Origin: an uncultured Chthoniobacter sp.
GTDB taxonomy: Bacteria > Verrucomicrobiota > Verrucomicrobiia > Chthoniobacterales > Chthoniobacteraceae
Assembly (NCBI GenBank): GCA_903874975.1
Contig: CAIQUL010000085.1
Location: 1 to 32,311, forward strand
Length of the DNA stretch: 32,311 nucleotides
Direction: 5' to 3'
Position 1 is the stretch's first letter, and each line of letters opens with the position of its first letter. Positions 2,750 through 26,695 of the stretch are shown here, piece after piece. Made by a program: the position numbers and the translations under genes. The notes beneath the pieces are model-generated. The model worked only from the letters and a program-made list of their open reading frames with translations, ran no database searches and was not told the DNA's origin.

Positions 2750-4129
2750 CTAAAGCACCGTCCCGCGCAGGAGAGCGACGGCCGCGGTGAAGTAAATGAT
2801 GAGGCCGGTGACATCCACCAGCGTGGCCACAAACGGCGCGGAGGAGGTCGCTGGATCGAGGCCGATGCGGCGGAGAAGCAGCGGGAGCATCGAGCCCGCG
2901 AGCGAGCCCCAGAGCACCACGACGACGACCGCCGCGCCGACCGTCGCGCCCACGAGCAGATAGTGCGGACCGTAGATCGGGGAGAATTGGCCCCAGATGG
3001 CCACGCGCGCGAATCCGAGCAGCCCGAGGAGCAGCCCGAGGAGGAGGCCGCACGTCACCTCGCGGCGCATCACGCGCCACCAGTCGCGGAGTTGCACTTC
3101 GCCGAGCGCCATGGAGCGAATGAGCAGGCTGGTGGCCTGCGAGCCGGCATTGCCGCCGCTGGAAATGATCAGCGGGATGAACAGTGCGAGCATCAGCGCG
3201 TGCGCCAGCTCGGCTTCGAAAAATCCCATGACCGTGGCCGTGAGCATCTGGCCGATGAAGAGCACGACCAGCCAGACCGCACGCTTTTTCACGAGGTCGA
3301 AAATCGGCGCGTCCATGTAAGGCTCCTCCAGTGCCTCGACGCCGCCGAGCTTCTGCATGTCCTCGGTGGTCTCCTCTTCCTGCACGTCGAGCATGTCGTC
3401 CACGGTGACGATGCCGAGCAGCTTCTCCTCGCTGTCCACGACCGGGAGGGTGTTGCGGTCGTATTTGCGGAAAACCTCGAGCGCCGTGCCCTCGGCGTCG
3501 GTGGCGCGCAGGGCGACGAAACTGCTGTCGCGAAACTCCGCGATGCACGTGGTGACGGGGCGGATGAGCACTTCGCGGATGCGGATGTCGTCGATCAGCC
3601 GCCCGCGCTCATCGGTCACGTAGATCACGTTGAGCGTCTCCGTTTCGCTGCCGTGGATGCGGACGTGGTCGAGGGTCTGCTGGATCGTCCACTCCTCGCG
3701 AACGCTGATGAAAGCAGGGGTCATCAGGCGACCGACGCTGCCCTCGGGGTAGTTGAGCAGCGCCTGCGCGATGGCTTTTTCCTCGGGCGAAAGGAGCTGG
3801 ATGAGCTGGACCACGGCGGCCCCCGGCAGCTCCTCGAGCAGCGCCGTGCGGTCGTCGGGCGACATGTCATTGAGGATGCGGGCGGCCTCGGCGTGCCCCA
3901 TCGCTTTCAGGACGATCTGCTGCGCGTCGGCGTCGAGATACTCGAAGACGTCCGTGGCCTGCGCGTGCGGGAGCAGGCGGAAGACGACGGCCTGCTCATC
4001 GTCCGGCAGCTCGGTGATGCACTCGGCGATGTCCGCCGGCGACCAGTCGGCAAACGCCGCCCGCAGCGCGGAGAAATTCCGCTCCGCGATCAGCTCCTTG
4101 ATTTCCGGACCGATGAGATTGCCGAGCAT
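2750..4129 (-). CDS. mgtE: MgtE magnesium transporter
   Basis: 459 residues from the ATG at 4129, the usual MgtE length. The N-terminal superhelical MgtE_N domain is visible (ELPDDEQAVVFRLLPHAQATDVFEYLD, with repeats of this form). A pair of CBS domains follows (YVTDERGRLIDDIRIREVLI and YDRNTLPVVDSEEKLLGIVTVDDMLD). The C-terminal half has about five membrane helices and the family signature SSGGNAGSQATSLLIRSMALGE. MgtE is a homodimeric Mg2+ channel in the inner membrane, gated by Mg2+ binding to the N and CBS domains. The gene lies 51 bp after a kinase gene on the same strand; no functional link is evident. Confidence 0.96.
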   Translation of the reverse strand: MLGNLIGPEIKELIAERNFSALRAAFADWSPADIAECITELPDDEQAVVFRLLPHAQATDVFEYLDADAQQIVLKAMGHAEAARILNDMSPDDRTALLEELPGAAVVQLIQLLSPEEKAIAQALLNYPEGSVGRLMTPAFISVREEWTIQQTLDHVRIHGSETETLNVIYVTDERGRLIDDIRIREVLIRPVTTCIAEFRDSSFVALRATDAEGTALEVFRKYDRNTLPVVDSEEKLLGIVTVDDMLDVQEEETTEDMQKLGGVEALEEPYMDAPIFDLVKKRAVWLVVLFIGQMLTATVMGFFEAELAHALMLALFIPLIISSGGNAGSQATSLLIRSMALGEVQLRDWWRVMRREVTCGLLLGLLLGLLGFARVAIWGQFSPIYGPHYLLVGATVGAAVVVVVLWGSLAGSMLPLLLRRIGLDPATSSAPFVATLVDVTGLIIYFTAAVALLRGTVL

Positions 4130-4180
4130 CTGCGTCTTGTGTCGACGGCGGGGGAGTTTGGGAAGCCGGAAAGCGCGCCG

Positions 4181-5845
4181 CTACGGATCGGGCTTTTCCT
4201 TTTCCGGGGCCCGCCGGGCCTCGTATTCGGCGAGCCGTTCGGCGGCGCTCTTCTGGCTCTGCCAAGCGGCCTGCTCGCTCGCCTGGGCGCGGTCGCGTTC
4301 ACGACTGAGCTGGAGGAAAAAACCGACGACGAGAGCATTGAAGAGCACAAAGAAAATGGCGAAGAGCGCGATCTCCGGTTTGTGCCTTACGGCCCAGAGG
4401 GCGAGCTGTTTGAGCGGGCCGGCCCCCTCGGCTTTCGGAGCGAATCCGCCCTGGCACGCGGCGATGTCTTCCTGCAAATCCTCGACGGTTTGGTAACGGT
4501 CCGCCGGCGCGAGCGCGAGGGCTTTCATGACCACGGCAGACAGCCCGTCGGGGATGCGGTGGCCGGGGCAGTGCGCCAGGACATGAAACTCCGCGGTGAG
4601 GTCGCGCTTCCCGCGGCGGCTGGATTTCTTCGGGTGATTGTGAACCGACGGATGCGCGATCCGGCTGCCGAGAATTTTCTCCACGATCTCCGTTACGTTT
4701 TCGCCCTCGAACGGCGTGCGCAGGGTGAGGATGGCGTAGAGGATCTCGCCGAGCACGTAGATGTCCGAGCGGCCGTCGATCTTGTCGAGTTCGCCGCGGG
4801 CCTGCTCGGGCGAGATGTAGGGCGGGGTGCCAACGATGAGCCCGTGCATGGTCTCGAAGCCCCGGAGATCGTCGGGCGGGGCGCTCCTGGCGGCGGCGTC
4901 GGCGGCGAGGTCGGCCCCGCTTGCGGGGTGCGTTTCGCGGCGGCCACCGGTGAGGTTTTTCGCCAGCCCCCAGTCGAGCACGAGCACCTCGCCGAAAGCA
5001 CCGATCATGATGTTTTCCGGCTTGAGGTCGCGGTGGACCACGCCCTTCGAGTGGGCGAAAGCGATCGCGTCGCAAACTTTCTGGAAGACCGTCAGCAGCG
5101 CGCCGAGCGGATATTTTTCGATGCTCTTTTCCCGCCCGGCGCGGATGCCGCGGAGGACGTCGTCGAGGGTCGTGCCCTTGACGAATTTCATGGTGTAAAA
5201 CATCTCGCCCTGCTCATCAATGCCCAGTTCATAGACCGGGATGATGTTCGGGTGCTCGAGCTGCCCGGTGAGCTGCGCTTCGTCGATAAAGCGGAGGGCG
5301 TTTTCGCGCGAGAACTGGTGCTTCGAGTTGATGACCTTCATGGCCACGGTGCGGCGGATCCGGAGGTCGCGAGCCTGGAGGATCACGCCCATGCCGCCGC
5401 GGTTGATCGTGGTGATGACCTTGTACTTCCGCCCGGCGATCTGGTTGCGCACCTGACCCAGACCCAGGCCCTCGTCCCACAGCGCCTCGACGAATTGCCG
5501 CGCGGCGGATTCGCGGAGCCGGACGATCAGCCGCGCCTGACCGATCTGGACTTCCTGGCCGAGGCGGATGCGGGTGGGGAGCTGGACTTGCACGCCTTCG
5601 ATGAAGATGCCGTTGCTGCTGCCGAGATCCTCGATGACCAGCTCGAAGGCGTTGAAGATCAGTCGCGCGTGGTGGCGCGAGACGTCGTCGGCATCGACGA
5701 AAATCGGGCACGAGGCGTCGCGCCCGATGAGGTACTCACCGTGGGAAACGGTGTACATCGCGATGGCCTCTCCGCCGACGAGGACATCCACCTCGGCGCT
5801 GACGGCCTCGGCCTCCGGGACCGGGGTGGAGGCGGATTCAGCCAT
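4181..5845 (-). CDS. FHA domain-Ser/Thr protein kinase with C-terminal membrane anchor
   Basis: 554 residues. An N-terminal FHA domain (about 20-110) has the phosphothreonine-binding pattern LIGRDASCPI, VSRHHARL and LGSSNGIF. The kinase domain (about 140-430) has the glycine loop RGGMGVILQARD, the ATP lysine in VAMKVI, the catalytic loop VHRDLKPENIM near residue 270, and DWG in place of DFG near 291; DWG is common in kinases of Planctomycetes and Verrucomicrobia. The activation segment ends PPYISPEQA. After a linker comes one membrane helix (IALFAIFFVLFNALVVGFFL), then a charged coiled-coil-like tail. The enzyme would therefore face the cytoplasm, with the FHA domain reading phosphorylated partners or itself. 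Neighbours do not reveal its substrate. Confidence 0.95.
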   Translation of the reverse strand: MAESASTPVPEAEAVSAEVDVLVGGEAIAMYTVSHGEYLIGRDASCPIFVDADDVSRHHARLIFNAFELVIEDLGSSNGIFIEGVQVQLPTRIRLGQEVQIGQARLIVRLRESAARQFVEALWDEGLGLGQVRNQIAGRKYKVITTINRGGMGVILQARDLRIRRTVAMKVINSKHQFSRENALRFIDEAQLTGQLEHPNIIPVYELGIDEQGEMFYTMKFVKGTTLDDVLRGIRAGREKSIEKYPLGALLTVFQKVCDAIAFAHSKGVVHRDLKPENIMIGAFGEVLVLDWGLAKNLTGGRRETHPASGADLAADAAARSAPPDDLRGFETMHGLIVGTPPYISPEQARGELDKIDGRSDIYVLGEILYAILTLRTPFEGENVTEIVEKILGSRIAHPSVHNHPKKSSRRGKRDLTAEFHVLAHCPGHRIPDGLSAVVMKALALAPADRYQTVEDLQEDIAACQGGFAPKAEGAGPLKQLALWAVRHKPEIALFAIFFVLFNALVVGFFLQLSRERDRAQASEQAAWQSQKSAAERLAEYEARRAPEKEKPDP

Positions 5846-8142: not shown

Positions 8143-10333
8143 GAAACACGTCCTTTTCGTTTGCACCGGAAACATCTGCCGCAGCCCGATGGCGGAGGGG
8201 CTCTTCCGCAACGCGGTGAAAAATCTGCCGGGTTTCGAGATCAGTTCCGCCGGGGTGGCGACGGACTACGGACAGCCGCCGAGCACGCATGCGGTGGAGG
8301 TGCTGCGCACCATAGGGCTGGATATTTCCGACCAGCGCAGCCAGCCGCTGACCGAGGAACTGGCGGAAAAGGCGACCGACATTTTCGTCATGACGCGCGG
8401 CCATCTCGACGCCATCTGCACGTATTTTCCCGAGGCGGCGGAAAAGACGTTTCTCATCCGCGAGTTCGATACAGCCGGCAGCGATCTCGACGTGCCGGAC
8501 CCCATCGGGCTCGGCATCGGCGCCTACCTCGAGTGCCGCGACACCATCCAGCGCAGCCTCCCGGGGCTGCTCCGCTTTCTCCAATCCGCATCTCCAATGA
8601 GCACCACGCAAACCACCACCGCCATCGCCATCGCCCCGACGACCCGCACGCTGCGCATCGCGCTCGGTGCGGATCACGGCGGCTTTGAACTCAAGCAGAC
8701 CGTCCACGCGCACCTCACGAAAAAGGGCTACATCGTCACGGACTTCGGGGCGTTTGCGGCGGACTCGGTGGACTACCCGGATTACGCGGAAACCGTCTGC
8801 CAGCACCTGCTCGCGGGTGAGTCCGATTTCGGCATCCTGTTTTGCAAAAGCGGCATCGGCATGAGCATCGCCGCGAACCGTTTTCCACAGATTCGCGCGG
8901 CTTTGCTCGACAACGCCGCCGAGGCCGCGATCACCCGCCAGCACAACAACGCCAACGTGCTCTGCCTCGCCGCCAATCACGTCGAGCCGAGCGCCGCGCC
9001 GAACATCGTCGAGGCGTTTCTGACCACCGCTTTCGCGGGCGGCCGTCATGAGCGCCGCGTGGAAAAGCTCGACCACCTCGGAACCTCGAACGCCAGCCAT
9101 CCGTCGCTCGAAGTCGGTGATCCCGAAATCTTCCGCGCGATCGAGGCGGAGAAGCGCCGGCAGTTTGAAAACATCGAGCTGATCGCCAGCGAGAACTTCA
9201 CCAGCCGCGCGGTGATGGAGGCCCAGGGTTCGTGTCTCACCAACAAATACGCCGAGGGCTACCCGGGCCGCCGCTGGTACGGCGGGTGCGAGCACGTGGA
9301 TGTGGTGGAGCAGCTCGCCATCGACCGCACGAAGCAGCTCTTCGGCGGCGACCACGTGAACGTCCAGCCGCACTCCGGCTCGCAGGCGAACACGGCCGTC
9401 TATTTCTCCGTGCTCCAGCCCGGCGATCACATCCTGACCATGGACCTCGCGCACGGCGGGCACCTCACGCATGGGCACAAGGCGAATTTCTCCGGGCGTT
9501 TCTACACCGTGACCCACTACGGCGTGAGCCAGAAAGACGAGCGCATCGACTACGACCACCTCGCCGCCGTCGCGCACGAAGTGAAGCCGAAAATGATCAC
9601 CGCCGGCGCCAGTGCCTACCCGCGGATCATTGATTTCCAGCGCATGCGCGAGATCGCCGACAGCGTGGGCGCGTATCTTTTCGTGGATATGGCGCACATC
9701 GCCGGGCTGGTCGCCGCGGGGCTGCACCCGAACCCCGTGCCGCTCGCCGATTTCGTGACCACGACCACGCACAAAAGTCTGCGCGGCCCGCGCGGCGGCC
9801 TCATCATTTGCAAAGCGAAATACGCCAAAGGCATCGACGGTCAGGTCTTCCCTGGCATCCAGGGCGGCCCGCTCGAACACGTCATCGCGGCCAAAGCCGT
9901 GTGCTTCCTCGAAGCGCTCCAGCCGTCCTTTAAGGCCTACGCGCAGCAGGTCGTGAACAACGCCAAGGCGCTCGCCGCCGGCCTCACCAAACACGGCTAC
10001 CGCATCGTCAGCGGCGGCACGGACAACCACCTCATGCTCGTGGATCTCCGCCCGAAAGGTCTCAACGGCAAGATCGCCAGCGACGCGCTCGACCACGCCG
10101 GCATCACCGTGAACAAGAACGGCATCCCCTTTGACACCGAGCCGATCAGCAAAGGCGGCGGCATCCGCGTCGGCACGCCCGCCGTGACCACGCGCGGCAT
10201 GAAGGAGGAGGAGATGATGGAGATCGCCGACCTCATGCACCGCGTGCTCGCGAACATCGAGAACGCCGCCGAGCACGCGAAAGTCCGCGCCGAAGTCCGC
10301 GCGCTGACCTCGCGCTTCGCGCTGCCGGGGTAG
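8141..10333 (+). CDS. Three-enzyme fusion: LMW phosphatase - ribose-5-phosphate isomerase B - serine hydroxymethyltransferase
   Basis: One uninterrupted frame of 730 residues from GTG 8141. (1) Residues 1-150, low-molecular-weight phosphatase: P-loop [12 protein letters not shown] and the aspartate loop VPDPIG. The Ile in the loop suggests phosphotyrosine rather than the phosphoarginine specificity of YwlE, which has Thr there. (2) About 170-315, Rpi[28 protein letters not shown] with the catalytic Cys, HNNANVLCL, and the ending [11 protein letters not shown]. (3) About 325-730, serine hydroxymethyltransferase (GlyA): [26 protein letters not shown] lysine in [13 protein letters not shown] (about K545), [14 protein letters not shown]. 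The SHMT part has no ATG of its own between RpiB and its first motif. An internal ATG at 8597 could start RpiB-SHMT but has no clear ribosome site. Bacillus has these as neighbouring genes ywlE, ywlF, (ywlG), glyA in the same order. Confidence 0.93.
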
Positions 10334-10344
10334 AAAATCAGCCG

Positions 10345-10400
10345 GTCATCCTGAGCGGAGTTCCCGGCGGGCGCAGGCGGGCGGGAACGCAGTCGAAGGA
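10345..10400 (+). repeat. TCCTGAGCG...AGTCGAAGGA repeat with an inserted hairpin
   Basis: The flanks GTCATCCTGAGCGGAG (10345-10360) and AGTCGAAGGACCTC (from 10391) look like a dispersed motif GTCATCCTGAGCG-AGTCGAAGGA that I recall from many bacterial genomes. Between them is a hairpin with stem GTTCCCG (10360-10366) / CGGGAAC (10382-10388). It lies 12 bp after the fusion-gene stop and could terminate its transcript, although there is no T-run. Confidence 0.5.
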
Positions 10401-10439
10401 CCTCTAACTTTTCGTGGGCGCAGGCGGTGGGACGAGGCC

Positions 10440-10508
10440 ATGACGAATGAAACCCGCATGACGAATCCTCCGCCATTCGCGACCCCTTCGGGTTTGGTCA
10501 TTCGTCAT
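10440..10508. repeat. Extragenic palindrome, second copy of the ATGACGAA type
   Basis: ATGACGAATGAAACCC (10440-10455) pairs with GGGTTTGGTCATTCGTCAT (10490-10508) with two unpaired bases. An additional ATGACGAAT word lies in the loop. It uses the same word as the element at 486-595 and fills the space between the convergent fusion gene and the next minus-strand gene. Confidence 0.65.

Positions 10509-16292: not shown

Positions 16293-16293
<1 letters not shown>
16114..16293 (-). CDS. Tiny lipoprotein overlapping the lepA stop
   Basis: 59 residues. The start ATG (16293-16291) shares one base with the lepA stop (TGATG). The protein is MRALALLAVALLLGGC, a complete lipoprotein signal with lipobox LGGC, followed by a 43-residue charged tail (ATDSDDRAFFNTGWVKPEDG...). 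Small lipoproteins with a FFNTGWVKPED-like segment have no known function. Overlap with lepA implies translational coupling. Confidence 0.7.
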
Positions 16294-18089
<1,796 letters not shown>

Positions 18090-18102
18090 GAAAAGGGCCG
18101 GG

Positions 18103-18131
18103 AATATGGGGGGCTGTCCCGCGCCGGTCAA
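18103..18131 (-). promoter_or_regulatory. Promoter for lepA with a very short leader
   Basis: On the minus strand TTGACC (18131-18126), 17 bp, CATATT (18108-18103). The -10 box ends 13 bp before the lepA ATG, so transcription would start about 7 nt before the start codon. Confidence 0.5.
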
Positions 18132-18158: not shown

Positions 18159-18848
18159 TCACTGGCCCCAAAAAAGCAGCCGGGCGTAGAGGTAGGCGAT
18201 GGTTTCACCCACGACGGCGCGGACGCCCATGCTGGAGGACCACCAGCGGTCCGGGTCGAAGCTCTCCTCGGGAGTCGAGATCACCCCGATGCGCGAACCC
18301 GGACCGAACGCCGTTGCGTAAAGCAACCGGCTCCGCCGGGCGTGGACACCGGAAGTGAAGATTGTGATCTTTTCCGCCGAGTATCCGCGCTCCCGCAACC
18401 ACGCTTTGAGCGCGAGCGCCGAGGCATAGGTCCGGTCGCGCCGCACGGTTTTCCACGCCACGGGTTGCAGCAGGCCGGCTTCGCCCCCGAGCTTGGTGTA
18501 AGTGGCGACCGTGAGATTCGCGTAATCGTGATATGCGAGGAGCGGCGAACCCTTTTCGAGCGGCTCGCCCGTCACACACCAGACCCGGTAGCCGCCCCGG
18601 CGAAACTCCACGTCGGCCACCCGCAGATCGGCGTCGCTGACCCAGCCCTCCATGACGAGCACACCGCCGGGCACGGGGTCCTGCACGGCGAGGAATCCGT
18701 AGAGCCCGCGCCCGCCGACGACGACACCGAGCGCCACGAAAAACCATACCGCGAGCCATCCGCGCCACGTGGGTCGCACGGCGATTCGGCGGCAGAGCAG
18801 GCCGAGAAAGAACGGTGCAACGGTATTGGAGGGCGGCGATTCAGGCAT
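18159..18848 (-). CDS. YdcF/DUF218-type membrane protein
   Basis: 229 residues from the ATG at 18848. One N-terminal membrane helix (GWLAVWFFVALGVVVGGRGLYGFLAV) is followed by a DUF218-like domain: GGVLVMEGWVSDADLRVADVEFRRGGYRVWCVTGEPLEKG, then ERGYSAEKITIFTSGVHARRSRLLYATAFG. This pattern (an activity name line, a growing repeat, then S-x-x-H-x-R-R) is that of the ElyC/SanA/YdcF group, envelope-linked proteins of unclear biochemistry. The domain would face the periplasm. It lies upstream of lepA with its own start; no link is evident. Confidence 0.72.
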   Translation of the reverse strand: MPESPPSNTVAPFFLGLLCRRIAVRPTWRGWLAVWFFVALGVVVGGRGLYGFLAVQDPVPGGVLVMEGWVSDADLRVADVEFRRGGYRVWCVTGEPLEKGSPLLAYHDYANLTVATYTKLGGEAGLLQPVAWKTVRRDRTYASALALKAWLRERGYSAEKITIFTSGVHARRSRLLYATAFGPGSRIGVISTPEESFDPDRWWSSSMGVRAVVGETIAYLYARLLFWGQ

Positions 18849-18991
18849 GCGCGGCGAGCGAAGTTTCTGTCTTAGCGATCGCGTCTGCCTCCGGCCAGTG
18901 CCAGCGCGCACGACGGCTGCGCGCGCCCGGTCGCCCCGACTTCATCCGCTGGTCGGTGACAAAATTTTGACAAACTTTGCACGTCTCTCCA

Positions 18992-19013: not shown

Positions 19014-19172
19014 TCAGATCGACTTGCGGCCCTGAAATTTCCCGAGAATCGCCCTCGCCGTCTTCTCCCGATGGCGCTGCTGCGAGGCCTGATCCCCGCC
19101 GGCTAATCCCTCCACGATTCCGGGTTTCGTTCCAGGCTTGGGGCGGGACTTTTTGTTCGGGCGCGATGGCAT
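19014..19172 (-). CDS. Tiny basic protein, unknown
   Basis: 52 residues from the ATG at 19172, ending in TGA just before a strong hairpin. The sequence begins MPSRPNKKSRPKPGTKPG and ends EKTARAILGKFQGRKSI; about a quarter of it is Lys or Arg. Other frames over the same stretch look less protein-like. It might bind nucleic acid, but no family is recognised. Support comes from the hairpin directly after the stop and from the lack of any other gene here. Confidence 0.4.
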   Translation of the reverse strand: MPSRPNKKSRPKPGTKPGIVEGLAGGDQASQQRHREKTARAILGKFQGRKSI

Positions 19173-19275: not shown

Positions 19276-19863
19276 ATGAATGCTCCTCCTGTGGTGCCGC
19301 TCCCGACTCCGCAAACCCCGCCCGCCCCAAGGCCCGCCCGCCCCAAGGCCCGCCCTCGCCGAGGGAGAGCGGCTGGTGCCCACGCTCGTCGTGGCCGGCG
19401 GGCTCACCGTGCTCGGCGACTTGCTACTTTGGAATCACTCCCCGGGTCTCGCGCGGGCGATCCATGAGCAACCGCTCGCCGAGCCCGGCAGCACCGGCCG
19501 CGGCGGATCGAGTTTGGCGCGCATCGTTCGCATCGGCCTGCCGGCCGTCCTGCTGCTCGCGGTCTTCATCGGCGTCTTCGCCTCGGGCCAAACGCGTGGC
19601 CGGTGCTGCTCGAGCAAGCCGAGACGCTCCCCGGAGGCCTGGTCCGCGCCGATCTGCGAATCGGCCTGCGCGAGATGGCGCGAATTCAGCGCGGACGACT
19701 CTGGGAGGCGGATTGGCGCGAACGCCAGTTCCGAACCGACCGCAACGAGCGCGCCCTTTTCGACTGGGCCACGAGGCAGAGCGACCTCACCTCCATCGAG
19801 AGGGAATTCACGATCATCAAGGACTACTACCGGACGCGGGCCGCGCTGGGATACGGTCAATGA
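19276..19863 (+). pseudogene. Membrane-protein gene broken by a 16-bp duplication and a second frameshift
   Basis: The start is ATG 19276 (MNAPPVVPLPTPQTPPAPRPA). A perfect 16-bp tandem duplication at 19321-19352 throws translation out of frame. Removing one copy joins it to a frame reading LAEGERLVPTLVVAGG, TVLGDLLLWNHSPG, and a second membrane helix (RIGLPAVLLLAVFIGVFASG). Near 19590 the frame changes again: adding one base in the G-run of TCGGGCCA gives SGPNAWPVLLEQAETLPGG, which continues to the end (DYYRTRAALGYGQ) with TGA at 19861. The restored protein would have about 190 residues and two membrane helices. The LLLWNHSPG part recalls DUF4173/DUF4153-type proteins, but far shorter. It is either a real pseudogene or the result of sequence errors. 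Confidence 0.7.
19321..19352 (+). repeat. Perfect 16-bp tandem duplication
   Basis: CCCGCCCCAAGGCCCG occurs at 19321-19336 and again at 19337-19352 without a gap. Deleting one copy restores the open frame of the gene beginning at 19276. Confidence 0.95.
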
Positions 19864-19941
19864 GAGCGGCGGGGCGCTGAGGCCCGCCCGCTTCGGCACG
19901 GGTGCCTGAATGTGTTCGTGCGAGCCAGCCGTGCCTTGCCC

Positions 19942-19990
19942 AGGACGCCAAGGGAAATTCTTTCAGAAGCCTTTGCGTCCTTGGCGCCCT
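19942..19990. repeat. Extragenic imperfect palindrome (CCTTGGCG words)
   Basis: AGGACGCCAAGGG (19942-19954) is complementary to TCCTTGGCGCCCT (19978-19990) at 11 of 13 positions. The right half reads CTTTGCGTCCTTGGCGCCC, a word of the type seen dispersed in many bacterial genomes. It lies about 100 bp before the Gfo/Idh/MocA gene. The rest of 19864-20087 shows no gene. Confidence 0.5.
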
Positions 19991-20087
19991 TTGCACAATC
20001 AACGCTTGCCCGATTCACCCCTCCGCACCCATGTTTGCCCGACGAGCGCTTTCGCTCCAACATCTCCACCCCTCACCAGCCACCTCC

Positions 20088-21458
20088 ATGAAAACCAACC
20101 TGACGCGTCGCAACTTCCTCCTTTCCACAGCCGCCGCCGGCCTCGGCGCAGCCACGCTCGGCCTTCCGCGCGCCCGCGCCCTTTCCGAGAATGGCAAACT
20201 CCGCGTGCTCTCGGTCGGCGTCATCGGCACCACCGGCGCAGGGGACCGCCGCAATGTCGCCAGGCATCCGGGCGCGGAGATTACCGGTCTGTGCGACGTG
20301 GATTCCAACGCCCTCGAGGCCGCCTCCAAGGAGCACCCGAACGCTTTCAAGTGCGCCGATTACCGCGAGGCGTTTGCCAAGCACGGGGACAAGTTCGACG
20401 CCGTGATCGTCTCGGTGCCAGACCACTCGCACGCGCCGATCATGCTGACGGCGATGGCGCACGACAAACACGTGTATGGCCAGAAGCCGCTCGTGCATCA
20501 GCTCGCGGAAATCGTGATGATGGAGAAGGCGATCAAGGCCAAGCCCAACCTCGTGACGCAGCTAGGCAACCAGCGCATGGCCTCGCCGGGGCGCCGCGCC
20601 GCGGTGGAAATCCTGCGCCAGGGCCAGCTCGGCAAGGCCATCGAAGCCTACAATTGGACCGGCGCGCCGGATCCGGGCATGTATTTCAACATCGACAAGG
20701 AACTCACGGAAAACCCGGTCATTCCGCCGAACCTCGACTGGAACCTGTGGCTCGGTCCGTGCGCCCCGATTCCTTTCTACAAGCAGCTCGCTCCGGTGAA
20801 ATGGCGCTCGTGGTGGGACTTCGGCACGAACGGCCTCGGCGACTGGGGCTGCCACATTCTCGACGTAATCTTTTTCGCCTACGACGAGCTGCTATCGCCC
20901 GTGTCCGTGAAAACGGACTGCGAGGAACCGGCGGGCAAGTTCTTCCATGTCAATCCGTGCAGGTCGGTCGTCACCTTCGCGGTGAATTCCGACAAATTCG
21001 CCGGCAAGACTTTCAAGGTCCACTACAACGACTCGAACCTGGCGGCGACCCCGGAGCAGATGCGCATCCCGCAGGAGATCAAGCACAGCAACATGACCGT
21101 GGTAGTCTGCGAACAGGGCACGCTCGCGCTGAAGGCTGACGGCGGGCTGACGATCTGGCGCGACGGCAAAGCGGAAGACGGCCTGAAGATGCCGAATCTA
21201 CCGCCATTCCCCGGACTGAACCACTGGCACGCATGGGTGGACAACTGCCACGGCAAAAAGACCGAGCTGCGCACGCCGTTCAAGGACGCGGTGCGCATCA
21301 CCGAGACCACGCTGCTCACGGTCAAAGCCACGCGATTTCCCGGCACCGAGCTGCTATGGGACAAGTCAAAGCTCGCCTTCACCAATCACGCCGAAGCCAC
21401 CAAAACGATCGTCAGCCGCGAATACCGCGACGGCTTCGCCCCGCCGAAGGTGGGGTAA
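20088..21458 (+). CDS. Secreted Gfo/Idh/MocA-family oxidoreductase (TAT signal)
   Basis: 456 residues from ATG 20088. The N-terminus MKTNLTRRNFLLSTAAAGLGAATLG is a twin-arginine signal, so the folded, cofactor-loaded protein is exported. The Rossmann part follows (VLSVGVIGTTGAGDRRNVARHPGAEITGLCDVD), then DAVIVSVPDHSHAPIMLTAMAHDKHVYGQKPL, which contains the EKP-like catalytic lysine region (here QKP). The C-terminal domain has WRSWWDFGTNGLGDWGCHILD and the ending HWHAWVDNCHGKK. Planctomycetes and Verrucomicrobia have many such exported sugar or inositol dehydrogenase-like proteins, presumably for glycan breakdown; the substrate is unknown. An upstream in-frame extension to 19902 covers a palindromic repeat and is rejected. 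Confidence 0.93.
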   Translation: MKTNLTRRNFLLSTAAAGLGAATLGLPRARALSENGKLRVLSVGVIGTTGAGDRRNVARHPGAEITGLCDVDSNALEAASKEHPNAFKCADYREAFAKHGDKFDAVIVSVPDHSHAPIMLTAMAHDKHVYGQKPLVHQLAEIVMMEKAIKAKPNLVTQLGNQRMASPGRRAAVEILRQGQLGKAIEAYNWTGAPDPGMYFNIDKELTENPVIPPNLDWNLWLGPCAPIPFYKQLAPVKWRSWWDFGTNGLGDWGCHILDVIFFAYDELLSPVSVKTDCEEPAGKFFHVNPCRSVVTFAVNSDKFAGKTFKVHYNDSNLAATPEQMRIPQEIKHSNMTVVVCEQGTLALKADGGLTIWRDGKAEDGLKMPNLPPFPGLNHWHAWVDNCHGKKTELRTPFKDAVRITETTLLTVKATRFPGTELLWDKSKLAFTNHAEATKTIVSREYRDGFAPPKVG

Positions 21459-22037: not shown

Positions 22038-24992
22038 TCAATGCGCCCCACGGAACGCGTCGCTCAGAACGAGTTCCCTCATCAGGGACTTCAATTTGAA
22101 GTTCTCGCCTTCGGTCTTCTTGATGATGGATTCGATTGTGGACGAGTCGGCTGGGGCGAGTTCGCGGGAGAGGCCGAATCTTAGCAGGTGCGCGGTGAAT
22201 GCTTTGGCGAAGCGCTGGTTCTCCTTCACCAGCGATTCCTTGAAATCGACGATGCCGCCGAAAGGGTATTTTTTCAGGAATGTCCCGCTCGCATCGACCG
22301 TGCGGCCATTGTCGTATTTGTCGCGCCACCGGCCTGTGATGTCGAAATTCTCCATCGCAAAACCGAGTGGGTCCAGCCGTGAGTGGCACCCGGCGCAATC
22401 GGGGTTTTTTCGGTGTTGGGCGAATTGTTCGCGGATGGTCAGGTCTTTCGCGGTTTGGTCTTCTTTCAACGGCGGGACATTGTTCGGCGGCGGGTCCGGC
22501 GGGTCGTTGAGGATGACTTCGATAATCCACGCTCCGCGCGCGATGGGGTGAGTCCGATCCGGGCCCGAGGTCATGCTGGCCATGGCGGCTGTGGTGATGA
22601 CTCCACCGTAGCGGGGATCCGTGGTTGCCACGCGCCTGAAGCTTCGGGAATCGAGTTTGTTTTTGATCTCCTGGTCGAAGTTTCGGGTCGCTTGTTCCTG
22701 CACCTTGCGGGGGTCGGTTGGTTTAGGGATGACTTTGAGGGCTGCTTCTGCTTCGGCGATTGATTTGCTCAAGGTTCCTTTGAGCGATTTCTGTTCGACC
22801 GTGAGGGCTTTTTCCAGCTCGTCGGCGGAGAGATAGCCGGCCCCGGCATTTGATGCGGTGACTTCGTCGGCGGTGAGTGCGCGATCGTAGAGGCGCGCCT
22901 TTGCCAGGCTGACGGAAAGGTGTTTGTCGCCACCCGGCGGAAGCTGGCGGACTCCGAAGAGCACGGTGGTGACATCCTTCGCAAAGGTCGTTGAACCCTT
23001 GCGGTACGGTTTTCCATACGGTTTGCCATTGCGGTAGAGGGTCGTGGTGCCGTCCTCGGCATAAACCATCACGAGGTGCAAATCCTGCATGGGCGATTCC
23101 TCGGCGACGGAATCGGGAAAGTCCTCCGTGCGGGCAAACCTGTTGCTGCCGGAGATCCAATGCCCGCGCTTCCTCATGCCGAGCACGATGGCATCAAAGA
23201 TATTGTTCTGGCCCTGGATGCCCATCAATCCACCGCCGGATTGAGCGAGGTCATGGACTCTGCACCACACTTCCAGCGTCTTCGCCTTGAGCTCGACGGG
23301 CAGTCGCTCGCTTTGCAGCCACGCTGTGTTTTCGAGAATGAGCATCCCGTCCTGATGGCGGATTTTTCCGTGAGCCTGGAGGTGAAGCGAACCCACGGAA
23401 TCCTTCAGGCCGTCAGCAAATTCCCAAGCCGCGAACGGTTTCAAGTCCACCGCCTTGGCGGCACCGTCGGCTGTCTGGCGGGCGGCGAGCAACCGGGATC
23501 TCACCGGCTCGAACAGCGCGTTGAGGTCGGTGCGCGCCTTCTGAATGGCCGCTTCCAAAGAACGGCCCTTCGCTTCGTTGGCTTGGTTTTCCTCGATGAT
23601 TTTGGCGGCATCGACCACCGGTGGTTTCAGGTCGGAGGCATACCATGTGTGGAGGAAGTCGCTTTGATAGCTGAAGTCCGGCTTGATGAGATCAATGATC
23701 GGGCGGTTTTCCAAAAAGACCGCATCGAAGAGAAGCAGCGGTTCGAGCACCATATGCGTGCTGGCCGGGTTGCTCTTATCCACGTTGAAGAGCCGGGCTT
23801 TGGCAGGATCGGGAGTGGCCGACAGCACGTTCTCCAACTGCATCCACTGCGCGGGAAATGTGTCGAGAAATCGCTCGATTTTCGGGTCGGCAAGCAGGCG
23901 TGTGATCGTCTTGTCGAGGACTTCTGCGCGGGACAGTTCACCGCGTTCCGCGAGGCCGAGGAGTTCCGCATCCGGACTGCTGCCCCACAGGAAAAACGAC
24001 AGCCGCGAGGCAAGTTCGTAAGGTTTGTCCGCCGCGTCCTCCGATGCGAATTGGTATAGGAACTTCGGTGACGACATGATTGCGGATGCCGCCTTCTTCA
24101 TGCTGTCGGTGAATGAAAGGCCGCGGGTGGTCTGCTTGAATGCGTAGTCCGTGTAGCGATTGACGGTATCGGCATCCACCGCACGGCGGAACGCCTGTTT
24201 CAAAAATGGCGCGAGCCGCCGGTTCATCTCGCCGCGCAAATCGGTGTCCGGTTCCGGGGCTTTGAGGAACTGGTTCCAGAGGCCCACGTTGGCTTCCGTG
24301 AAGTCGGGGCTTTGGAGGATGGACACGCTGAGTTTCAAAAAGGAATCCAACAACAGCGGAGAAAGGGTTAGCTGGTTCGCTTGATTGTCGAAACCGTGAG
24401 CTGCGCGCAGGTCTTTGGGGAACGGCTCCACGCCCTGAAAGCCGTTCTCCGGACGCAGGGTGAGGCAGGAGACGTTGACATTCGCGGGCATCCCCTTGGC
24501 CCCGGCGTTGAGATAGTTTTCATTCCTGGTCATCAGCTTTTCCGGCAGGCTGAAGACATCGCGCCGGATCTGAAAAAGATCCCGCACCGCGTTGTTGTAT
24601 TGATAGCGGTTCAGCCTTCGGAGGCCGAGCCGCGGCGTGCCACCTTTCGCAGCTGATTGCTTTTGCAGGGATTTCAGCTCAGCGAGAAACCGCGTGCGAT
24701 CCTTGTCAGTCAGCGCCGGCTCGTCCTCGGGCGGCATTTCCAGGTCCTCAACGACCTTGATCACGTCGTTGAGCAACTGCGGCTTGGTCAGCAATTGCGC
24801 CGCGCCGGCGAGTTCCTTGAAATTGACCTTTCCCTTGGTTTTTTCACCGCCGTGGCACTTGACGCATTGCGCGTCGAGCAGCGGCTTGATGAACGCATCG
24901 AAGGCGTCTGCCGCCCGAGACTCAAAGGCAACGCCAGCGAGTGAGAGCAGCAGAATGAAATGGACGATGCGCTTTTTTCCAAACATGGCCAT
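22038..24992 (-). CDS. Planctomycete-type cytochrome protein (DUF1587/1592/1588/1585) with an inserted LamG-like domain
   Basis: 984 residues from ATG 24992, four bases after the stop of the DUF1552 gene; a GGAG lies 8 bp upstream. The signal peptide is about residues 1-28 (cut after SRA). A haem-binding CVKCH is at 43-47, then LGLRRLNRYQYNNAVRDLF (DUF1587). Next come DUF1595/1592-type helices (SRLSFFLWGSSPDAELLGLAERGEL). In the middle, about 525-735, is a concanavalin/LamG-like beta domain (KTLEVWCRVHDLAQSGGGLMG, LYRNGKPYGKPY, ARLYDRALTADEV). A second CxxCH, CAGCH, is near 866 in the DUF1588 part, followed by DUF1585 (RFAKAFTAHLLRFGLSREL). It is exported and probably binds c-type haem; the actual reaction is unknown. 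It forms an operon with DUF1552. Confidence 0.92.
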   Translation of the reverse strand: MAMFGKKRIVHFILLLSLAGVAFESRAADAFDAFIKPLLDAQCVKCHGGEKTKGKVNFKELAGAAQLLTKPQLLNDVIKVVEDLEMPPEDEPALTDKDRTRFLAELKSLQKQSAAKGGTPRLGLRRLNRYQYNNAVRDLFQIRRDVFSLPEKLMTRNENYLNAGAKGMPANVNVSCLTLRPENGFQGVEPFPKDLRAAHGFDNQANQLTLSPLLLDSFLKLSVSILQSPDFTEANVGLWNQFLKAPEPDTDLRGEMNRRLAPFLKQAFRRAVDADTVNRYTDYAFKQTTRGLSFTDSMKKAASAIMSSPKFLYQFASEDAADKPYELASRLSFFLWGSSPDAELLGLAERGELSRAEVLDKTITRLLADPKIERFLDTFPAQWMQLENVLSATPDPAKARLFNVDKSNPASTHMVLEPLLLFDAVFLENRPIIDLIKPDFSYQSDFLHTWYASDLKPPVVDAAKIIEENQANEAKGRSLEAAIQKARTDLNALFEPVRSRLLAARQTADGAAKAVDLKPFAAWEFADGLKDSVGSLHLQAHGKIRHQDGMLILENTAWLQSERLPVELKAKTLEVWCRVHDLAQSGGGLMGIQGQNNIFDAIVLGMRKRGHWISGSNRFARTEDFPDSVAEESPMQDLHLVMVYAEDGTTTLYRNGKPYGKPYRKGSTTFAKDVTTVLFGVRQLPPGGDKHLSVSLAKARLYDRALTADEVTASNAGAGYLSADELEKALTVEQKSLKGTLSKSIAEAEAALKVIPKPTDPRKVQEQATRNFDQEIKNKLDSRSFRRVATTDPRYGGVITTAAMASMTSGPDRTHPIARGAWIIEVILNDPPDPPPNNVPPLKEDQTAKDLTIREQFAQHRKNPDCAGCHSRLDPLGFAMENFDITGRWRDKYDNGRTVDASGTFLKKYPFGGIVDFKESLVKENQRFAKAFTAHLLRFGLSRELAPADSSTIESIIKKTEGENFKLKSLMRELVLSDAFRGAH

Positions 24993-24996
24993 CAAC

Positions 24997-26373
24997 TCAG
25001 CTCCACATGTCCGAGATGACGCCGGAGCTGTCGGCGTATTGGTTTATCTCCGCGCCCATCAGCTTCGCGAGAGACAGCCACATGTTGGAGTTGAGCGTGC
25101 CGCTCTTGCATTGGATTAAGCGCCCCTGCTTGATCTGCTTCTGACCCGTGCCGGCGACGATGAGTGGCAGATCGAAAAACTGGTGCGTCGCACCATCGCC
25201 GATCCCCGCCCCGTAGGTGACCAGCGAGTTGTCGAGGAGCGAGGTGCCGTCCGCTTCCTTGATCTCCTTCATCCGCCGCAACACATACGCATATTGCTCC
25301 ATGTGGAAGACATCGATCTTCTGGACGCCCTTGTAACCGTCGCCCCCCTGATTGTGGGTCATCGTGTGATGGTTCACCGGTTTGTCGAAGACACCCTCGT
25401 AAAGCATCGGCGCCTCCCACCTTTCCGGCCCGATCATGAATGTGCACACGTTTGTGATGCCCATTTGAAGCGCCAGTAGCATCAAATCCGCCTGCAAACG
25501 GATGTATTCTCCGCGCGGCAGAATTTCGTCCTTCGGGATTCGCACGTCGGCGGTGGCGACCAGTTTTTGCAGCTTGGCAATGCGGCCCTCCACGTTGCGA
25601 ATCATTTCCATGAACTCGCTGAGGGTTTCCTGGTCGGCGTGGCCGAGCTTTTTCGAAAGGGACTTGGCATCGGCCAGCATCAGGTCGGTGACATCGGCCA
25701 GATGCTGGCCGTAGCCGTCGGCCATAAAGAGCCGATCGTAGAGCTTCTTCGGGTCCTTGATGGAGGGCGCGATGCGGTCCGGCCCATACCAGGAAATGTT
25801 GTCGAAGTAGATGTCCTCCTTGCCGGATTTGAAGCCATTGCAACTGATCTCCAGCGTTCTGAAAACCGAGGCGTGGCCGATGTGGTCACCGATGATTTGA
25901 TCGAGGCTGCGTCCGTTCGGATGCTTCATGCCCTTCGCCACAGCCTGCTGCGGAGAAACGCTCGTGAGATAGCAGGACGCCCCCTGGGCGTGCACGTCCT
26001 GCCCGTCCAGAGGAGTCCGGTCCAGGCCCGTCACCAGAGTGATGTCACCGCTGTGTGGCGACAACGGCTGCATCGTCTCCGTGAGCGTCACCGGATAAAT
26101 GCCGGGTTTGTTCGGAATGCGCTTCTGGCTCTTGAATTTCTCCGAGTCGAAGCCGCCGACAAATCCCTTCATCGTTGCGATCGTCTCCTCGCCTGGGAAG
26201 AAGCAGCGCCGCACGAGACCGTTGGGAGCATACATCATCACCAGCCTGCGAGCCGGGGCCGGGTTGCTTTTCACCACGCTGCCAAAAGCCGAGGAGAGAG
26301 AGTGCAGAAAAGGCAGCGCAATCGTGGCGCCATTCAGTTTCAGGAAATTGCGTCTGGACGTGATCATTTTCAT
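24997..26373 (-). CDS. DUF1552 exported protein
   Basis: 458 residues from the ATG at 26373, preceded by GGAGGT at 5 bp spacing; the frame extends further upstream but without a ribosome site. The N-terminus has a twin-arginine-like signal (MKMITSRRNFLKLNGATIALPFLHSL). DUF1552 sequence: RLVMMYAPNGLVRRCFFPG, LVTGLDRTPLDGQDVHAQGASCYLT, GRSLDQIIGDHIGHASVFRTLEISCNG, NVCTFMIGPERWEAPML, HHTMTHNQG and LVTYGAGIGDGATHQFFDLPLIVAG. DUF1552 belongs to the alkaline-phosphatase-like superfamily relatives found in Planctomycetes and Verrucomicrobia and is nearly always paired with a DUF1592 protein, as here (4-bp gap). The joint function is unknown, probably in periplasmic breakdown of sulfated or complex polymers. 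Confidence 0.92.
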   Translation of the reverse strand: MKMITSRRNFLKLNGATIALPFLHSLSSAFGSVVKSNPAPARRLVMMYAPNGLVRRCFFPGEETIATMKGFVGGFDSEKFKSQKRIPNKPGIYPVTLTETMQPLSPHSGDITLVTGLDRTPLDGQDVHAQGASCYLTSVSPQQAVAKGMKHPNGRSLDQIIGDHIGHASVFRTLEISCNGFKSGKEDIYFDNISWYGPDRIAPSIKDPKKLYDRLFMADGYGQHLADVTDLMLADAKSLSKKLGHADQETLSEFMEMIRNVEGRIAKLQKLVATADVRIPKDEILPRGEYIRLQADLMLLALQMGITNVCTFMIGPERWEAPMLYEGVFDKPVNHHTMTHNQGGDGYKGVQKIDVFHMEQYAYVLRRMKEIKEADGTSLLDNSLVTYGAGIGDGATHQFFDLPLIVAGTGQKQIKQGRLIQCKSGTLNSNMWLSLAKLMGAEINQYADSSGVISDMWS

Positions 26374-26422
26374 GCAGACCTCCGAGGTGGGCGAATCATA
26401 GGTGAAATAACGCGGGATTTTT

Positions 26423-26500
26423 GGCAAGAGAATGGATGGCAGAGGAATGTGCTGAAGGCCATTTTTGAGAAAACATCCCCTTGCCGTCCATTCCTTTGCC
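26423..26500. repeat. Extragenic imperfect palindrome (GGCAAAGGAATGG words)
   Basis: GGCAAGAGAATGGATGGCAG and further bases (26423-26449) pair with CTTGCCGTCCATTCCTTTGCC (26480-26500), whose complement is GGCAAAGGAATGGACGGCAAG. It lies between the DUF1552 start and the last attC site, in the leader or promoter region of the operon. It is the sixth spacer palindrome in the window, again with its own word. Confidence 0.6.
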
Positions 26501-26566
26501 AGTCCCTCACTATTGAATCTTCGCCCTCGCGGATTCTTCGCCTGCGATGACGTGCTCCGTTGGTTG

Positions 26567-26695
26567 GGCGAACGTTTGAGCGCAGGCACCCCTATCAGCG
26601 AGGGCGAGCGTTGAACGCGGGGTTGAGGTTGTAGCTACGAGAAATCATCGAAACTGGGCGGCTGGTAGGGGTTGCTCTGGCGCGGCTTGTTCGCC
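26567..26695 (-). other. attC-type recombination site, third
   Basis: 129 bp. On the minus strand it starts GGCGAACAAGCCGCGCCAG and ends GCGCTCAAACGTTCGCC. The left arm GCGCCAGAGCAACCCCTA pairs with the complement of TAGGGGTGCCTGCGC, leaving an extra C and an extra A in the left arm. The site begins 7 bp after the stop of the 116-residue cassette gene. Beyond it the sequence returns to host-like DNA. Confidence 0.8.

Follow-up and report, generated by a model that had tools for sequence, protein, structure and literature searches.

The 588 bp at positions 19276–19863 (forward strand) of the window, the 32,311 nt stretch of an uncultured Chthoniobacter sp. contig that was analysed, are most probably (roughly 90%) a young pseudogene: what is left of a gene that encoded a DUF4153 (PF13687) membrane protein of 10–11 helices and was broken by at least three ordinary insertions and deletions. 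The remnant was recognised by tblastn with the proteins of relatives, by a search of the own genome with an intact protein of a relative (P0003), and by the Pfam matches of the relatives' proteins. A 16-bp unit would have been duplicated in tandem close to the gene start, and further on about 276 bp would have been deleted in frame and about 772–784 bp with a shift of frame. All three lesions may have arisen by slipped-strand or short-repeat misalignment, and the remnant would probably give no working product.

Intact homologues and retained pieces

The C-terminal piece (19600–19860) matched 3 of the 57 genomes searched, these being the own genome and two relatives from the same genus (G001 and G002), in which it closes one continuous frame of 543 (G001) or 539 (G002) codons, the intact gene measuring 1,620–1,632 bp versus 588 bp in the window. 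Both intact proteins matched DUF4153 (131.3 and 137.2 bits, cut-off 27), neither gave a match in NCBIfam, and a simple hydropathy scan predicted 11 and 10 membrane helices; no paper on the function of DUF4153 was found in the accessible part of the literature. A scan of named genome contigs gave two loci, on JANXWQ010000237.1 and JANXSB010000445.1, both titled 'MAG: Chthoniobacter sp.'. If the G001 gene were read in its longest frame (L017:3641–5593, within the locus 3641–5607), it would overlap a tRNA-Leu at 5525–5607, so the later ATG, giving 543 codons, is the likelier start.

With P0003 as query, matches were obtained in 10/57 genomes and in 10/40 genomes of the family. In both of these overlapping sets the same nine genomes matched in addition to the own one, which did so in pieces; no match was obtained in the remaining 30 family genomes, some of which are incomplete. 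The sequence-only reading had named homologues with the two parts as separate genes as the observation that would speak against a broken gene, and these were not encountered, as all nine homologues outside the own genome are single, uninterrupted frames over most of the protein. This includes G021, where a TAA was noted inside the aligned range and the main frame still spans residues 3–502.

When P0003 was searched against the own genome (E up to 1), three pieces were found, corresponding to residues 5–53, 141–188 and 442–535, all within 19276–19863 and in the order of the intact protein, with 57–65% identity; two are outer stretches and one is an inner stretch. By tblastn and base-by-base comparison, the N-terminal piece with the first helix (about residues 18–50) was placed at 19355–19447 and the inner piece with one helix (residues 141–188) at 19448–19591, followed by the C-terminal tail from about residue 442 at 19582–19863, all on the forward strand. 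The same search detected neither a second copy of the gene nor its missing middle (about 1 kb) elsewhere in the assembly.

The first gap, set by the base-by-base comparison at 276 bp whether G001 or G002 is the reference, is a multiple of three and had been missed by the sequence-only reading; its junction has its best breakpoints at 19447–19454, and positions 19442–19455 are within one match of the best. The second gap measures 772 bp against G001 and 784 bp against G002, each a multiple of three plus one, with best breakpoints at 19580–19591 (within one match of the best, 19578–19593). One further single-base change near 19590 had been proposed as needed to restore the frame, but these positions coincide with the second junction, and the apparent change is therefore the scar of the larger deletion. 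Such deletions could not be seen in the lone sequence, because relatives are needed to see them. The two deletions together account for a loss of about 1,050 bp from a gene of about 1,625 bp (about 65%); almost the entire Pfam domain has gone with them, and 2 of the 10–11 helices are kept. In the relatives the flanks of the junctions have only short matches in common. The breakpoints are uncertain by about 6–15 bases, having been placed with two relatives that, at about 57–65% protein identity, are distant for this use. These short matches are compatible with misalignment at short repeats, which they may suggest and do not prove.

Neighbourhood and the draft assembly

The remnant is preceded on the reverse strand by lepA (16293–18131, assigned by family match), a gene with a DUF218 match below the Pfam cut-off (18159–18911) and a small basic open frame of 51 codons (19020–19172), and is followed on the forward strand by a gene for a Gfo/Idh-type oxidoreductase (20088–21458, Pfam). 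No gene order around the gene was seen to be common to the window and G001 or G002. In G001 the DUF4153 gene lies near dnaA, dnaN, tRNA-Leu and rsfS, and a Gfo/Idh gene is also present on that contig, but with only about 37% protein identity. The DUF218-like neighbour had matches in two of the four other genomes of the genus; in one of them the match and the DUF4153 gene are on different contigs, and in the other they are >200 kb apart.

Rfam and tRNA scans of the window returned nothing. A dispersed repeat family, present in all five genus genomes searched, has a copy between open frames at 10330–10450. It corresponds to no Rfam family at the gathering threshold, and its matches number at least 53 for the own genome and at least 65 for G002, scoring having been limited to 40 first-look candidates in four of the five genomes; one copy in G002 is close to the DUF4153 gene. 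An intergenic motif before the Gfo/Idh gene (19975–19994) had 6 matches in the genome (≤3 mismatches) versus 3 for the reversed control, which is not clearly above chance. Further downstream, a PSCyt/PSD multidomain protein with a Laminin_G_3 match (22038–24995) adjoins a DUF1552/HXXSHH protein (24997–26589), and the families of both adjacent genes (22038–26589) were first named from planctomycetes.

The deletions are read from one draft assembly (348 contigs, 95.9% complete), and a contig that wrongly joins the ends of a gene still intact in the cell, by a fault of assembly or amplification, is an unlikely alternative. Three lesions are many for one short gene, and next to the fragmented draft itself the two best relatives are metagenome-assembled. 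However, sequence lost through a wrong join tends to turn up in another place, and the absence of the missing middle from the rest of the assembly argues against such a join. The words on which assemblers usually join sequences are longer than the very short matches shared by the junction flanks, and no break was seen in the family matches of the adjoining lepA and Gfo/Idh genes. We thus consider an artefact of assembly less likely than a young pseudogene.

Remaining reading frames and constraint on the pieces

The frame from the ATG at 19276 enters the 16-bp array, after which the protein is lost. An overlapping ATG at 19280 opens a frame of 209 codons (19280–19909, forward strand, from the open-frame listing), which runs through the array into the first two pieces with their two retained helices, and then continues out of frame with the C-terminal piece. 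Since this frame already reads through the array, the middle piece is not necessarily silenced by the duplication on its own. The two hydrophobic helices expected beyond the array were recovered in the hydropathy scan, and the last piece is closed by the stop codon at 19861–19863. Neither the 209-codon frame nor the 86-codon C-terminal frame had a Pfam match at E up to 1, and by this measure neither of the two is an intact DUF4153 protein.

Differences from the intact genes at codon positions 1/2/3, summed over 166–167 codons of the retained pieces, were 43/32/70 between the window and G001 and 34/35/71 between the window and G002, versus 40/27/73 between G001 and G002. The pieces in the window have therefore evolved neither clearly faster nor with clearly less third-position bias than the intact pair, and since the pattern resembles that of intact genes, constraint on the gene lasted until recently on this time scale. 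With divergence in the pieces still of the kind seen in coding DNA under constraint, the loss looks recent. The remaining pieces are free of stop codons of their own; a recent loss would explain this, as would a short gene that has been kept.

That the 209-codon or the 86-codon frame is translated into a functional short protein is nevertheless very improbable. Both frames are open and the pieces show coding-like substitution, but the second half of the longer frame is out of the family frame, neither frame gave a Pfam match (E up to 1), and a short form of the gene was found in no relative among the 57 and 40 genomes of the overlapping sets. Slimmer still is the chance that a two-helix protein is made from the ATG at 19280 in a new role, with its reading frame set by the 16-bp duplication.

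The 16-bp duplication and gene decay

As the sequence-only reading had claimed, the array at 19317–19355 (forward strand) is a perfect 16-bp tandem duplication, with 2.4 copies in 39 bp and 100% matches. It is the top-scoring tandem array of the window and the longest of its perfect duplications with a period of 10–60, and the 16-bp unit was not found beyond its two tandem copies in the 3.86-Mb draft genome (≤1 mismatch allowed). When the window was simulated 60 times with a first-order Markov model, no perfect duplication with a period of ≥16 arose, so the duplication is real and not a chance match. Tandem duplications of this kind are not rare in the own genome: a survey of about 134 kb, made up of the window and ten more readable stretches (an additional one read as N and was set aside), found ten perfect duplications with a period of ≥10, three of which have a period of ≥15. 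All ten fall inside some stop-free frame of ≥138 codons, weak evidence of coding given the high G+C content of the genome.

Of the three explanations offered earlier for the duplication (slippage switch, young pseudogene or sequencing artefact), that of a young pseudogene has gained support, and a reversible switch, in which the number of 16-bp repeats toggles the gene on and off, is scarcely credible with about two-thirds of the gene gone. A perfect duplication near the gene start, with a length that is not a multiple of three, is what such a switch would use, but with about 65% of the gene missing downstream no repeat number restores the whole protein, and on the gene-bearing contigs of the relatives (L017 and L018) no perfect tandem duplication with a period of 10–60 was found. 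Phase-variable (contingency) loci are whole apart from the repeat, and the locus in the window carries two deletions; it resembles phase-variable tandem-repeat loci (for example PMC12817950) in having a repeat unit length that shifts the frame, and differs from them in that the gene is otherwise deleted, so that no intact product is left for the repeat number to turn on or off. The deletions already refute a switch acting on the intact protein, unless they are a fault of the assembly.

The reading as a young pseudogene agrees with the presence of intact homologues in relatives, of frame-breaking and truncating lesions in the window, and of no other intact copy in the assembled genome (draft, 95.9% complete). 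Compared with the intact DUF4153 proteins of the genus, which its three pieces match in order at 57–65% identity, the remnant lacks about 65% of the gene and has no Pfam match. Short-repeat deletions and duplications are a feature of ordinary bacterial pseudogenes, which the remnant resembles in its several insertions and deletions per gene, its short ambiguous junctions and its pieces that are still coding-like, with no difference of note. It looks like a remnant of an ordinary kind, a case of gene decay and not of a genetic switch, and it matters little beyond annotation. Comparison with relatives can reveal that what seems a single-base frame error in a draft genome viewed alone was left by a large deletion, and the gene should be checked to be otherwise whole before a short tandem duplication is called a switch.
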